From Thermoplasmata archaeon (GTDB taxonomy: Archaea; Thermoplasmatota; Thermoplasmata; Lutacidiplasmatales; UBA184): a stretch of 49,831 bases of DNA. The notes beneath the pieces are model-generated. The model saw only the letters and a list, made by a program, of their open reading frames with translations. It did not search any database and had not been told where the DNA came from. Numbering within the stretch: position 1 is the stretch's first letter; each line of letters begins with the position of its first letter. The stretch lies in contig DAHXNZ010000002.1 of NCBI GenBank assembly GCA_027365105.1, positions 149,916-199,746 on the forward strand, in the 5' to 3' direction. Shown here piece by piece: positions 7,175 to 13,037 of the stretch. The position numbers and the translations under genes were made by a program.

Positions 7175-7519
7175 TCACGCCTCCTTGGGCGCCGGAGCGG
7201 GCGTCTCGGCTTCGGCGGGGGGAGTCGCGCCGGGCTTCTCCTTGAGCTTGTTGCGGATCAGGATATGCTCGCGCTCGGTCCGCTGGGCGAGTTCGGTCGA
7301 CTCGTAGACCATCGCCTCCCCCAGCGTCGTCGCGGTGCCGAAGCGCGCTTGCATCCGCTCGATCACGACTCGATCCTTGGCGACACTGACCTGCTTCGCG
7401 ATCTCGGCTCGGACCGCTTCCCGGTCGGGGGTCGGCGCCGTCGGGTGGGCGATCTCGAACCGGAGTTCCTGCCGGTGCAGCAACGGGTTCGGGCGCTGGT
7501 CAACGAGACGGATCTCCAC
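7175..7519 (-). CDS. rps24e: Small ribosomal subunit protein eS24
   Basis: The 114-residue protein has the S24e pattern: [19 protein letters not shown] at the N-terminus, [17 protein letters not shown], then [16 protein letters not shown]. The start is GTG 7519, preceded by an aggag 12 nt upstream. Upstream in-frame ATGs would add non-conserved residues and overlap the kinase by up to 110 nt. With this start the overlap with the dephospho-CoA kinase stop is 20 nt. The C-terminus ends in a Pro/Ala/Lys/Glu-rich tail (APAPKEA). Confidence 0.93.
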
Positions 7520-8069
7520 GGGGAACTCTCCTGATTTCCATTTGGCCGATGAGGGCGCGTACATGCTCCTTCGCGATCGCATCGACGCGAACGAAGGAGG
7601 CCCCCTCACCCGGGATGCCGTATATAACGGTGGCCCCGAGGGGCATCGATTCGACGAGCGCGAGGGCGCCGAGATCCTCCTCCCCCTCGACCTCGATGAG
7701 GCCCCCGCCGCTGCGGACCAGCTCCTTGACGGCCGAGCGGAGCGACTCGGTCAGCCCTCCGGAGGGGTTGGCGACTTTGATCTCGCGGCGTGCCGCGAGC
7801 AGTTCGAAGCTTCGGATGTCGATCGGTTCGTGACGCAGCGTCTTACGGTCGACGATCCCAATGAGCGGCAGGTGGCCGGTCGAGATCGCGGTGGCCGTCA
7901 CCCGGTCGCCGCAGGTCGCGTAGAGCTCGAGGTTCCGAATCCTCCGGGCCGCCTCTTCGCCGGAGTAGACCGGCCCATACCGTTCGGCCAGCGTGGCCCG
8001 GAGCGACTCCGGGACCACCCAGACCCGCTGCAGCTCACTTGACCCTAAGCGCGTACCGGCCGGCGGCAT
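7500..8069 (-). CDS. GTP-dependent dephospho-CoA kinase (DUF359 family)
   Basis: The roughly 189-residue product matches the archaeal DUF359 family shown to phosphorylate dephospho-CoA with GTP as the last step of CoA synthesis. Visible signatures are V-T-A-T-A near residue 57, GIVDRKT, ANPSGGLT and the acidic E-V-E-G-E-E-D-L-G-A-L-A active-site stretch near residue 128, followed by P-L-G-A-T-V-I-Y-G-I-P-G-E-G. Its place between spt4 and rps24e is the conserved archaeal order. ATG 8069 gives a 35-nt overlap with spt4. A GTG at 8018, just after the spt4 stop and right before VPESLR, is a credible shorter start. Confidence 0.9.
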   Translation of the reverse strand: MPPAGTRLGSSELQRVWVVPESLRATLAERYGPVYSGEEAARRIRNLELYATCGDRVTATAISTGHLPLIGIVDRKTLRHEPIDIRSFELLAARREIKVANPSGGLTESLRSAVKELVRSGGGLIEVEGEEDLGALALVESMPLGATVIYGIPGEGASFVRVDAIAKEHVRALIGQMEIRRVPRGDPSR

Positions 8070-8220
8070 GAATCCCCATCTTGCGGGCGATCTCCGACTT
8101 TTCGGGATCGATTACGACCAGGTATCCCTGCCACTCCCGGGAGGTTTCGCCGCCGCATCGGGGGCATTTGGCGCCCTCGGAAATCGACCGGCAGCTCTTG
8201 CAGGCCTTGAGGCTGATCAT
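8035..8220 (-). CDS. spt4: Transcription elongation factor Spt4 (RpoE2)
   Basis: A 61-residue zinc protein starting MISLKACKSCRSI, with C-x2-C...C-x2-C (CKSC, CPRC), then TSREWQGYLVVIDPEKSEIARKMG, the conserved archaeal Spt4 core. It dimerises with Spt5 to increase RNA polymerase processivity. ATG 8220 overlaps the rpoE1 stop by 4 bp; a longer frame to 8334 has no similarity to the family. Confidence 0.95.
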   Translation of the reverse strand: MISLKACKSCRSISEGAKCPRCGGETSREWQGYLVVIDPEKSEIARKMGIHAAGRYALRVK

Positions 8221-8855
8221 GAGGGCGCCTTCCCCGGTGGCGCCGGCTTCGCGGTCGCCTCCTTTTTGGCCGGAGCGGACGGCTTCTTGACGGGCGCCTT
8301 CTCTTCGGCCTTCTTGTGCGCCTCCTGGATCCACTCGAGCCGCCCGAGGCCGGGCTGGCGCATGGTCAGACCGATGCGGCTGTCCCGGGGCGAAATCTCC
8401 GAGAGCGAGAGCGAAACGACCCGCCCTCGGACCTTGTAGCCGACCTTGAGGTCCCGCTTCGATTCCGTGCCGACCAGCCGCTGGTTGTGCTCGTCGATGT
8501 TCACCCGGTCGTCCATGATCTGGGAGACGTGGAGGAGGCCATCCAGAGGCCCGAAGCGCACGAACGCGCCGAACTTCCGGATCTCGACGACCGATCCCTC
8601 GACGACCTCTTGGATCTCCGACTTGAAGAGGAGCGCCTCGTACTGGACCTCCTGGTAGACGCCGCCGTCCCCGTGGATGATGTGGCCCTCGCCAACGGGG
8701 GTCACGTTACGGATCGTCACGGTCAGGCTCTGGCCGTCGACGAGCTTCCCCTCGAACTGCTGCTGGGCGAGCTCCGTGAGCACGCTCGAAAGCTCGGGCC
8801 CGAGCCGTTGCGGAGGGATCCGAACGACATCCCGGCGCTGATCGAGGTAATACAT
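8217..8855 (-). CDS. rpoE1: DNA-directed RNA polymerase subunit E' (RpoE1/Rpb7)
   Basis: The 212-residue product begins MYYLDQRRDVVRIPP, the Rpb7 N-terminal RNP-like fold, and has an S1 domain around residues 80-160 (V-V-E-G-S-V-V-E-I-R-K-F-G-A-F-V-R-F-G, LLHVSQIMDD). It ends in a Lys/Ala/Pro-rich tail of about 40 residues that is longer than usual. With RpoF it forms the polymerase stalk. It heads the operon rpoE1-spt4-kinase-rps24e-rps27ae. A TATA-like cttata lies about 27 nt before ATG 8855, so the mRNA should be leaderless. An insertion sequence sits only a few bases upstream of that box. Confidence 0.95.
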   Translation of the reverse strand: MYYLDQRRDVVRIPPQRLGPELSSVLTELAQQQFEGKLVDGQSLTVTIRNVTPVGEGHIIHGDGGVYQEVQYEALLFKSEIQEVVEGSVVEIRKFGAFVRFGPLDGLLHVSQIMDDRVNIDEHNQRLVGTESKRDLKVGYKVRGRVVSLSLSEISPRDSRIGLTMRQPGLGRLEWIQEAHKKAEEKAPVKKPSAPAKKEATAKPAPPGKAPS

Positions 8856-8877: not shown

Positions 8878-8886
8878 CTATAAGAT
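8878..8886 (-). promoter_or_regulatory. TATA box of the rpoE1 operon
   Basis: Reverse-strand tcttatagg is centred 27 nt before the rpoE1 ATG. Only 4 bases separate it from the target duplication (8891-8899) of the neighbouring IS, so the TATA and the adjacent purine-rich bases are native, while everything further upstream was displaced by the insertion. Confidence 0.6.
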
Positions 8887-8890
8887 TCTT

Positions 8891-8899
8891 GCCCCGCCC
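8891..8899. repeat. Target-site duplication, left copy
   Basis: gccccgccc directly abuts the left terminal inverted repeat and is identical to 10081-10089. Confidence 0.9.
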
Positions 8900-8917
8900 G
8901 AGTGTGACTGTAAACTC
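8900..8917 (+). repeat. IS terminal inverted repeat, left
   Basis: Perfect 18-bp match to the reverse complement of 10063-10080. Confidence 0.95.
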
Positions 8918-9001
8918 GACCCACTGATGTGAGCCCGTTCGATCTGCAAAGCCCGTTCCTGTGGAGCCTCGACGTGAAAAGGGCGCTCCGCGGCGAATGG
9001 T

Positions 9002-10033
9002 GTGTCGCCTAATCCCCGCGGAGGCGGCCTCGCGGCCGCGAGCAGCTCAGCGCACCCTCGACTGAAAAAGACCACGGCCCATCGGACTCGTAAGGGGCTC
9101 CACCGACGGAACCACCGTCGCTACCGACAGTTCCTTCGCCACGGCCGAGGGAGCCTCTACCGCGTCCTCTCCGAGCTCGTGGACGAGGCTCCTCCGCCGT
9201 ATCGCTGTCGGCCGTACGGCACCCCGGGACGCCCACCCACTGACCCCTACGATGTCGCCCGATTCCTGCTGCTGAAGAATCTGGAGGGGTGGTCCTATGA
9301 CGAGACCTACGCCACCTTGGAGGCGCTCCCCGAGCTCGCCACCAAGCTGGGGTTTCGAGGACGGATTCCCGCCGCCAGCACGGTCGCCTCGCTGGGCCGG
9401 CGCGTGCCCGTGGGGTATCTCGAGGGCCTCATCGGTCGAACGGCCCGACAACTCACCCGAGGAAAGACTTCCGCCGCCGGGGATGCCACCGGGGTGGGCA
9501 CTCGCCGCTACGAACGCTGGTTTGACGTGCGACAGGGGAAGGCGAGCCGACGCCATCGGTTCGTCAAGCTCCACACGCTCGTGGCGACTCGAGCCCAGTG
9601 GCCGTTCTTTCTCTCGGCTCGAGTGACGGCGGGGACCCGGGGGGACTCGCCCGAGCTCGAGGATCTCTTGGACCAGATGGACCCGAGCGTCGAGCTCGGC
9701 AATACGACCCTCGACAAGGGCTACCTGTCTCGACGGAACGCGGAACTCGTCGAGGCGAGAGGAGGGCTACCGGTGATCGACCTGAAAGCGAACATCACCG
9801 CGAAGGCGCTGGGTTCTCCGACGTGGAAGCGGATGGTGCTGCGACAGCGAGGGGACCGACGGGCCTTCCGCTGTCGCTACCGAAGGAGAACGATTGTGGA
9901 AGGAGTGTTCGGGGCGTTCAAGCGGCGCTTTGGCGAGACGGTTCACGCCCGACGACGCCACGCCCAGCGGGTAGAGATCCTCTGCCGTGCGGTGGTCTGG
10001 AACGCGCTGGGGATCGTTTACCACCTCGGGTGA
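9002..10033 (+). CDS. IS4/IS5-superfamily DDE transposase
   Basis: The 343-residue product has the DDE catalytic layout: first Asp in A-A-G-D-A-T-G-V-G, second Asp in T-T-L-D-K-G-Y-L-S, and the Glu within YRRRTIVEGVFGAFK, which fits the Y-(2)-R-(3)-E-(6)-K signature exactly. The N-terminal region is Arg/His-rich, as expected for binding the inverted repeats, and includes F-L-L-L-K-N-L-E-G-W-S-Y-D-E-T, typical of the family. GTG 9002 is the longest start; V or M codons slightly downstream cannot be excluded. The frame is intact, so the enzyme could be active. Confidence 0.92.
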   Translation: MSPNPRGGGLAAASSSAHPRLKKTTAHRTRKGLHRRNHRRYRQFLRHGRGSLYRVLSELVDEAPPPYRCRPYGTPGRPPTDPYDVARFLLLKNLEGWSYDETYATLEALPELATKLGFRGRIPAASTVASLGRRVPVGYLEGLIGRTARQLTRGKTSAAGDATGVGTRRYERWFDVRQGKASRRHRFVKLHTLVATRAQWPFFLSARVTAGTRGDSPELEDLLDQMDPSVELGNTTLDKGYLSRRNAELVEARGGLPVIDLKANITAKALGSPTWKRMVLRQRGDRRAFRCRYRRRTIVEGVFGAFKRRFGETVHARRRHAQRVEILCRAVVWNALGIVYHLG

Positions 10034-10062
10034 ACGATGCAACCTCGGCTGACGTCAAGGTG

Positions 10063-10080
10063 GAGTTTACAGTCACACTC
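10063..10080 (-). repeat. IS terminal inverted repeat, right
   Basis: Reverse complement of 8900-8917 with no mismatch. Confidence 0.95.
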
Positions 10081-10089
10081 GCCCCGCCC
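10081..10089. repeat. Target-site duplication, right copy
   Basis: gccccgccc directly follows the right terminal inverted repeat and duplicates 8891-8899. Confidence 0.9.
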
Positions 10090-10113: not shown

Positions 10114-11148
10114 CTACGCTCCCGGTCCGGGGGTCGGCAGCCCGAGCGCCCGGTCGGTCATGGCGATCGAACGGCGGCCATCGGGGGCCAGGTCAAAGAC
10201 CGCCCGGATCGCGTCGATGTTCTCCGGCACCACGATCGACTCCTGGTGGATCGCCTGGAAGAAGTAGGCGTCCCGCCCCTCGAGCTTGACCCCCTCCTCC
10301 CAGAGGACATTTTCCATCATGTCGTTGTGGCCGATTCCGCGGTCCCGGGCGAACTCCATCACCTGGGGGGTCCCCTCGGCGCGTTCCCACCCCGCGAAGA
10401 GGTGGAACCGCGGCGTCGAGCGGAACCGCTCGAGCAGCTCCCGGCTCTCCCGGGGGGGTCGCTGGAGACGTACGTGGTTCACATGGACATGCATGAGGGT
10501 GGTCGGAACCACGACCGCCGTCGTGGTGATCGGGAGCCCCGGGAAGATCGTCTGGGCATCCGGGCCGTGGTGCGAGGGAAGATGGAAGGTGGGCAGGATT
10601 CCGTTGATCGGTCCCTTCTTGGTCTCGGCCGGGTCGGAAGCCCGCCGGACAAGCGTGACCTCCCACTGGTCGATCCCGAACGCGGAAGATAGAACGGCCC
10701 CGGCCCGGGCGATTCCGGTCGTGTTGCAGGAAACAACCCGGAGGCTCTTCTTCCCCCGGCACGCCTCGTAATTTCCCAGAGCGTTGAAGGAGGCCTCGGC
10801 GATCCCGGCCTTCTCCCCGCCCTGGTAGATCGCTGGCTTCCGCTCGTCAGCATAGAGCTTCCGATTCTCCGCGCCGACCTTTTCGGGAGCGGCGTCGACG
10901 ACCACATCCGACTCCCGCAGCAGGTCGACCAAGGTGCCCGCGACCGGTAGCCCCGCGGTCTCGAACTCGCTTCGCTGAGCCGACCCGGCAAGGAAGAGAC
11001 GGTAGCCCTTCTCTACCGCGCGACGCGCCTCGAAGCTCGGCCGAGTCTTGGTGACCCCGACGAGCTCCATATCGGGCTGACGGGCGACCGCGTCGGCGAC
11101 TCGCTTGCCGATCGTCCCGAATCCGTTGACTGCCACCCGAACGCGCAT
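10114..11148 (-). CDS. gap: Archaeal type II glyceraldehyde-3-phosphate dehydrogenase (phosphorylating)
   Basis: The 344-residue product starts MRVRVAVNGFGTIGKRVADA, the archaeal GAPDH NAD(P)-binding motif, and holds the catalytic cysteine in VVSCNTTG near residue 140. G-H-N-D-M-M-E-N and H-Q-E-S-I-V-V-P-E-N-I-D-A-I-R near the C-terminus are family hallmarks. It oxidises glyceraldehyde-3-phosphate to 1,3-bisphosphoglycerate and in archaea works mostly in gluconeogenesis. A TATA-like ctatatc is centred about 36 nt upstream (near 11184), leaving a short leader with gaggta before ATG. Without the IS, its stop would be 68 bp from the rpoE1 start. Confidence 0.96.
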   Translation of the reverse strand: MRVRVAVNGFGTIGKRVADAVARQPDMELVGVTKTRPSFEARRAVEKGYRLFLAGSAQRSEFETAGLPVAGTLVDLLRESDVVVDAAPEKVGAENRKLYADERKPAIYQGGEKAGIAEASFNALGNYEACRGKKSLRVVSCNTTGIARAGAVLSSAFGIDQWEVTLVRRASDPAETKKGPINGILPTFHLPSHHGPDAQTIFPGLPITTTAVVVPTTLMHVHVNHVRLQRPPRESRELLERFRSTPRFHLFAGWERAEGTPQVMEFARDRGIGHNDMMENVLWEEGVKLEGRDAYFFQAIHQESIVVPENIDAIRAVFDLAPDGRRSIAMTDRALGLPTPGPGA

Positions 11149-11946: not shown

Positions 11947-11960
11947 GGCAAATCCCATCT

Positions 11961-11994
11961 GCGGCGTCCCTTGTCCTCCCCTCGGGGACGCCGC
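11961..11994 (+). other. 10-bp hairpin directly before the transposase ATG
   Basis: gcggcgtccc (11961-11970) pairs perfectly with gggacgccgc (11985-11994) around a 14-nt pyrimidine-rich loop, and the ATG follows at 11995. It would mask any ribosome site and could restrain translation, or be part of an element-encoded structured RNA. A near copy of its first arm (ctgcgacgtccc, 11 of 12) occurs at 13021-13032, near the stop. Confidence 0.5.
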
Positions 11995-13037
11995 ATGGAA
12001 GCAGAGACCTTTGTGGGGTTGGACGTCAGCCGAAATGTGCCGTCGCCACCGCCGTCGATCCGTGGGGGGAGCGGGTCGACCAGTCGACGCTCGGGGCCAC
12101 CGACGCCGAGCTCATCGCCTACCTCCAACGCCTCCCCGGGACCAAGCACGTGGCCATCGAGGCGTGCACGATGTGGGAGCACTTCCATGACGCCGCGGTC
12201 GCCGCCGGGGCCGACGTCGTGCTCTCCCATCCGTACAAGACGCGCCTCATCGCCGACGCCAGCCTGAAGTCGGACAAGGTCGACTCCGAGGCGCTGGCCA
12301 CCCTGCTCCGTCTCCGAGCGCTTCCCACCGCCTTCGTTCCCTCGGAAGGGACCCGCGCCTTGCGTCGCCTCGTTCGGGAGCGGGTCTTCTACCGCAAGCA
12401 GTTCAAGGCGGTGGCGAACCACACCTACGCCCTCCGGGTCGCGAAGGGCGTCCCCTACGACGATGGGATCCTCGGACTCAAGCGCCGTCGGGAGGAGTTG
12501 CGCTCGCTCCACCTCCCCGAGGTGGAGCGAGGCCCGGACCGCCTTGTCGAGCTCGACCGCGCCACGCGCGTTCTTGACGACGCGATCCACGCGGCGTTCC
12601 TCGAGTCGAAGGAGGCGCAACTCCTCGAGTCCATCCCGGGGATCGGAGCGCTGACGGCCGTCACGCTGGCGGCATTCCTCTGCCCGATCGACCGGTTCAA
12701 GGGCTTGGACGAGCTGAGCTCGTACTGCGGGCTCTGCCCGACGAACCACCAGACCGCCGAGACCTCCTACAAGGGCCGGCTGAAGTCCGACTGCAACCGC
12801 CTCCTGCGATGGATCCTCGTCGAAGCGAGCTACGTTCACCGCCTCCACGCTCGAGGGAGCTACGTATCCCGGATCGGTCGCCGCGGCGCTCGTCGGAAGG
12901 GCGCGAAGCGCGGGGCAATCGACGCCGCCCGCGCGCTCCTTCGCGTGGTCTACGCAGTCCTCAAGAGAGGCACGCCCTATACCCCTCACGCTCCAGAGCG
13001 GCCGAGCTGCGGTAGTGAAACTGCGACGTCCCCCTGA
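11995..13037 (+). pseudogene. IS110-family DEDD transposase, broken by a one-base loss
   Basis: The first frame from ATG 11995 gives M-E-A-E-T-F-V-G-L-D-V-S-R, the IS110 N-terminus with the first catalytic Asp. From about 12036 similarity continues in the frame one base earlier: CAVATAVDPWGERV, then HVAIEACTMWEHF with the catalytic Glu and LKSDKVDSEAL with the paired Asp residues. The C-terminal transposase-20 half is complete (IPGIGALTAVTLAAFLCPID, then L-S-S-Y-C-G-L-C-P). The shift maps to the aaa at 12033-12035, as if one A had been lost. Separating the first Asp from the rest should inactivate the enzyme unless frameshifting or a sequencing error is involved. A downstream ATG at 12150 leaves a 295-codon fragment. 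Confidence 0.85.

Follow-up and report, generated by a model that had tools for sequence, protein, structure and literature searches.

An IS5-like insertion beside the rpoE1 core promoter of a Thermoplasmata archaeon and a recurrent TATA-box offset among its relatives

How does an intact insertion sequence (IS) come to lie directly upstream of an essential operon and leave the promoter of that operon whole? The question is raised by a locus in the window analysed here (a 49,831-nucleotide stretch of a Thermoplasmata archaeon genome), where a complete element separates gap from rpoE1. We consider the anatomy of the insertion and the promoter beside it, the placement of related elements elsewhere in the class, and the explanations that could account for both.

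The element and the promoter beside it

The insertion consists of the following features:

8900..10080, + strand: IS5-like insertion sequence of 1181 bp, bounded by perfect 18-bp inverted repeats and flanked by a 9-bp direct repeat; missing from 29 congeners
8900..8917, + strand: left terminal inverted repeat, GAGTGTGACTGTAAACTC
10063..10080, - strand: right terminal inverted repeat, exact reverse complement of GAGTGTGACTGTAAACTC
8891..8899: left copy of the target site duplication, gccccgccc; a single copy at the empty site of congener G013
10081..10089: right copy of the target site duplication, gccccgccc; perfect match to the left copy
9002..10033, + strand: DDE transposase, 343 aa, GTG start, putative catalytic residues D161, D238 and E300; Pfam DDE_Tnp_1, E 7.5e-18

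The initial annotation had described a complete IS with perfect 18-bp ends and a perfect 9-bp duplication splitting a 68-bp spacer, and this description holds in full: the repeats and both copies of gccccgccc are in place, the 9-mer has no further + strand occurrence in the window, and removal of the IS and one 9-mer leaves exactly 68 bp between the rpoE1 ATG at 8855 and the end of the gap stop codon at 10114 (both genes on the minus strand). The transposase gene has an open frame in which D161, D238 and E300 occupy their expected motifs, and its product carries the DDE_Tnp_1 domain typical of the IS5 family (Pfam PF01609, 65.5 bits against a cut-off of 23). Because its best curated NCBIfam model, NF033579 (IS5_2), scores 98.1 bits, below the cut-off of 140, we call the element IS5-like rather than a strict member of the IS5_2 family. 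Searches for relatives on plasmids returned only IS5 elements 27-29% identical in Paracoccus and Haematobacter plasmids, and a search of viral contigs found none.

Three small hairpins occupy 8956-9039, a stretch made up of the transposase gene's 5' leader and initial codons. One of them (8986..9023, + strand; arms 8986-8993 and 9016-9023) encloses the GTG start in its loop, and another follows at 9024-9039. Across nine relatives the arms show covariation (score 0.231 vs 0.118 for shuffled sequences, with slid versions far lower), which supported the start-codon stem better than single-sequence shuffles, which alone gave no significance. A search for known RNA families in the leader found none; the hairpins could serve to silence read-through transcripts entering from outside. 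Elsewhere in the window, at 11950-13037, an IS110-family transposase has its N-terminal part in another frame than the remainder; a frameshift has probably disrupted the gene, unless it is translated by frameshifting.

A search of relatives for the same locus without the element, proposed in the initial annotation, found it: the element is missing in 29/29 congeners whose rpoE1 locus was compared, and the closest congener examined (G013, locus L014) has GGGCGGGGCAAGAATCTTATAG once, unbroken, in the corresponding spacer, with one uninterrupted GGGCGGGGC immediately 5' of AAGAATCTTATAG and a diverged spacer farther upstream. These observations support the view, also that of the initial annotation, that the insertion is recent: an intact IS entered the DNA immediately 5' of the rpoE1 promoter once this lineage had parted from its nearest relative. 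The proposed count of identical copies in the same genome turned up no second one, but a sibling with 76% DNA identity is present at two further sites. Contigs C135 and C157 end within this sibling, C117 holds a single copy whose flanks are crossed, and pairing the four junctions gives two 9-bp duplications, CTTCCTGGC and ACACGTTCG. The flanks of the C117 copy (G000, locus L113) come from two different insertions, with duplications that match across contigs (L122 on C135, L004 on C157), reflecting either a mis-join or recombination between two copies.

The genes and promoter flanking the element are as follows:

8878..8884, - strand: rpoE1 TATA box CTTATAG; conserved in 29 congeners, and the best promoter-like site of the window with a congener-derived matrix
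8885..8890, - strand: AAGAAT, a BRE-like segment separating the TATA box from the duplication; its AA is conserved in position across 29 congeners
8217..8855, - strand: rpoE1 (RNA polymerase subunit Rpo7); NCBIfam TIGR00448 and PRK08563, above cut-off
8035..8220, - strand: spt4/rpoE2; Pfam Spt4
7500..8069, - strand: DUF359 protein; Pfam PF04019
7175..7609, - strand: ribosomal protein S24e; Pfam PF01282
6958..7170, - strand: ribosomal protein S27ae; Pfam PF01599
10114..11148, - strand: gap (type II archaeal glyceraldehyde-3-phosphate dehydrogenase); NCBIfam TIGR01546

The native TATA box does survive next to the insertion, as first annotated, but the distance given then (4 bp) needs correction, since 6 bp separate the box from the duplication and 15 bp separate it from the IS. 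All 29 congeners share a block of the form AA-NN-ATCTTATAG, roughly 30 nt from the start codon, that begins within or just after the duplicated 9-mer. In the alignment of these genomes, the strongly conserved stretch extends from the AA (four bases 5' of ATCTTATA) as far as the start codon; the columns immediately preceding this stretch are weaker, and none farther upstream is strongly conserved. The shared BRE-TATA-start block is intact beside the IS, and because the duplication covers the weaker columns just upstream, no conserved rpoE1 sequence has been displaced.

TATA boxes at a fixed distance from related insertions

The arrangement at rpoE1 recurs among relatives of the IS. Read outward from the element, the order is the 9-bp duplication, about 7 bp, and a TATA box: AAGAATC-TTATAG in the window; AGATCAT-TTATAT, GCAAATG-TTATAG and GAAAGCC-TTTTAG at three copies in genome G065; CGAAACC-ATTTATAG in G114; CCAACCG-CTTTAAT in G002; and GAAACCC-TTATTTAT in G039. 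A first set comprised 13 related insertions whose 9-bp duplications are exact or match at 8/9 positions; in 10 of them a TATA-like box begins 5-8 bp past the duplication, each at p < 0.05 for a 7-mer on one side. The enrichment is strong (Fisher 2e-20, binomial 2e-11) and post hoc, the pattern having been seen in this set before offsets were tested; two of the loci (L057 and L077) look AT-rich and were scored against a background taken from GC-rich DNA, which makes their p-values too small. The TATA matrix was made by hand from the general archaeal consensus. The initial annotation had overlooked what these 10 boxes suggest is a position preference of the whole family rather than an isolated event.

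The box lies outside the duplicated 9-mer, which has no evident common motif, and the end of the element that faces it varies (the left in most copies of the focal type, the right in a second subgroup). The box is missing at some insertions, namely L052 and a copy in G028. At L052 (in G068), where the duplication matches at 8/9 positions, the related element adjoins a coding stretch that resembles an IS transposase fragment rather than a promoter. The left ends of second-subgroup elements in five genomes (L127-L131) are followed by a variable 9-mer and then a similar GGCTTTGT-like word, which may represent another target preference or an older nested element.

A second set, for which the offset window was fixed beforehand, comprised IS5_2-like (NF033579) copies, a broader group than the focal subfamily, from nine mostly AT-richer genomes of other families in the class. 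Compared with intergenic positions of the same genomes, several of them AT-rich with TATA-like words correspondingly common, 23/29 insertions reach p < 0.1 (Fisher 1e-15). After re-anchoring (n = 34), TATA starts peak at offsets 4-10, most highly at 6 and 8 (17/34 and 13/34), over a baseline of about one start per offset; this amounts to 0.261 starts per offset per insertion at offsets 4-10 vs 0.036 at offsets 15-60, a sevenfold difference. On the TATA side, the consensus of these sites, which were selected for that match, reads as an A-rich BRE-like stretch followed by TTTATA. As a control we took 34 insertions of other DDE_Tnp_1 families, most of which have longer transposases and shorter duplications, from a subset of these genomes, and found no TATA peak (0.092 vs 0.075, n = 34; difference from the second set, p 6e-6). 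Selection alone fails to explain this difference between families, because it would affect all of them alike.

What guides the insertions

We consider it probable, on the strength of these comparisons, that IS5-like elements of Thermoplasmata target archaeal core promoters. A preference of this transposase group for archaeal promoters would have brought the element to a position just upstream of the rpoE1 core promoter, with one strand-transfer cut about 7 bp and the other about 16 bp 5' of the TATA box, just outside the BRE. The 9-bp duplication would then be regenerated on both sides, the BRE-TATA-start unit would be kept intact, and the downstream gene would keep its own transcription. The sequences themselves demonstrate that the element inserted here, that a relative has the site empty, that the core promoter is intact, and that related elements lie at a fixed distance from TATA; guidance of transposition by the promoter itself, through its DNA sequence or shape or through bound TFB/TBP, is what we infer from them. 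Recognition of promoters through bound TBP and TFB, which would place the element just outside the TFB footprint and spare the host gene, is a tentative proposal with somewhat less than an even chance of being correct.

Given similar weight, also short of even, is the proposal that the transposase is drawn to local DNA sequence or shape, in the form of a bendable AT-rich heptamer to one side of its target, and senses nothing of the transcription machinery. This is a version of promoter targeting that differs only in the guide, and IS transposases often favour particular target shapes. What bears on the choice is whether the neighbouring boxes are promoters. In 19/29 second-set cases there is no leaderless gene start at the expected distance, as a preference for sequence or shape would allow. 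Against it, a gene-like start lies 24-34 nt downstream of the box in 10/29, compared with 13% of TATA-like sites at an equal threshold (p 0.003), and at one insertion (L214 in G154) the 5' end of a 5S rRNA gene falls 30 nt past a TATATAG. Among the first-set insertions, rpoE1 is one of the genes behind such a box; others are open frames that we take, from their translations, to encode a carbamoyl phosphate synthase small subunit and a glycine dehydrogenase. This evidence supports the boxes being real promoters, though not in every case. Transfer RNA genes were considered as common targets and set aside, as only one tRNA was found among 41 loci, with its end rather than its start at the insertion.

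An ordinary random insertion tolerated in the spacer, its closeness to the rpoE1 promoter a matter of chance or survivorship, is unlikely. In a compact genome, insertions that broke the core promoter of an essential operon would indeed be lost; however, survivorship predicts a spread across intergenic DNA rather than the peak a few bases wide that the offset profile reveals, other IS families in the same genomes have no such peak, and the TATA match exceeds the intergenic background.

Unlikelier still is a regulatory or adaptive insertion, in which the IS would alter expression of the rpoE1 operon by removing upstream control or supplying its own. Its position directly upstream of an essential operon invites this reading, and the initial annotation had proposed that upstream regulation and read-through from gap were lost and that IS-borne sequence may act on the operon. 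The congener comparisons support neither loss, as nothing strongly conserved lies upstream of the promoter block and linkage to gap is not conserved: the two genes are separated by 23 bp to more than 1 kb, sometimes with unrelated genes between them (presumably ferredoxin-like, acetyltransferase-like and glyoxalase-like, to judge from translations), and several congeners have no gap within 1.5 kb of rpoE1. This variable linkage and the conserved promoter block suggest that rpoE1 is transcribed from a leaderless promoter of its own. A search for an outward promoter within the IS was likewise unproductive, the best internal site ranking 65th in the window and none pointing convincingly toward rpoE1. 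We accordingly expect the effect of the IS on rpoE1 expression to be small. Finally, an assembly artefact in this metagenome-assembled genome, for which the possible mis-join at the C117 sibling might be cited, is scarcely credible for the focal copy, which occurs once, inside a long contig, is flanked by matching duplications and has an empty counterpart site in a relative.

Comparison with known systems

Promoter-targeted transposons are already documented at bacterial sigma-A promoters and yeast Pol III genes, and archaeal TATA targeting, here by a common IS group, would add another independent solution to the problem of harmless insertion. If true, natural insertions could be used as archaeal promoter markers, and the elements would offer a simple system for testing guidance of integration by basal transcription factors. 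The literature searched, from which subscription papers were mostly missing, contained no report of a TATA-directed archaeal IS, an absence that counts as weak evidence.

Inverted repeats of 18 bp together with a 9-bp duplication define the IS903 group of the IS5 family, and the focal element has both. With IS903-like members of that family it shares a DDE_Tnp_1 transposase and a length of about 1-1.2 kb as well, a likeness of anatomy; it differs in its sub-cut-off IS5_2 score, an inverted repeat starting GAGTGTG, and the one-sided TATA preference. ISH6 (p-MULT 2), a mostly archaeal IS, is thought to favour AT-rich promoter or intergenic DNA (PMC3942029), but there it is the AT-rich motif AANATNTT that becomes duplicated, whereas the TATA box of the IS5-like elements lies outside the duplicated 9-mer.

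Closer in manner of targeting are TnGBS and related elements, for which the -35 box of sigma-A promoters lies 15-17 bases downstream of the insertion, and the ISKra4 group, which has the same preference (p-MULT 3 and one p-MULT 4 lineage; PMC3942029). They and the elements described here are DDE transposons placed at a fixed distance upstream of promoters, and the distance from element end to box, 15-17 bases there, is also about 15-17 bp here (the 9-bp duplication plus 6-8 bp). Theirs, however, are Mutator-like transposases acting at bacterial sigma-A promoters, whereas ours are IS5-like and face an archaeal BRE/TATA; the focal transposase matches only DDE_Tnp_1-type and IS5/IS1182/IS4-type models, so that the IS5-like set works alike without being a member, and the similar spacing would be the product of an unrelated transposase. 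The retrotransposon Ty3, which is guided to Pol III genes by TFIIIB and contacts TBP (PMC8632968), likewise integrates within a narrow stretch 5' of genes and beside TBP-containing factors. For the archaeal elements such factor contact is a candidate, and IS5-like transposition guided by TBP/TFB would be the archaeal counterpart of the Ty3/TFIIIB system.
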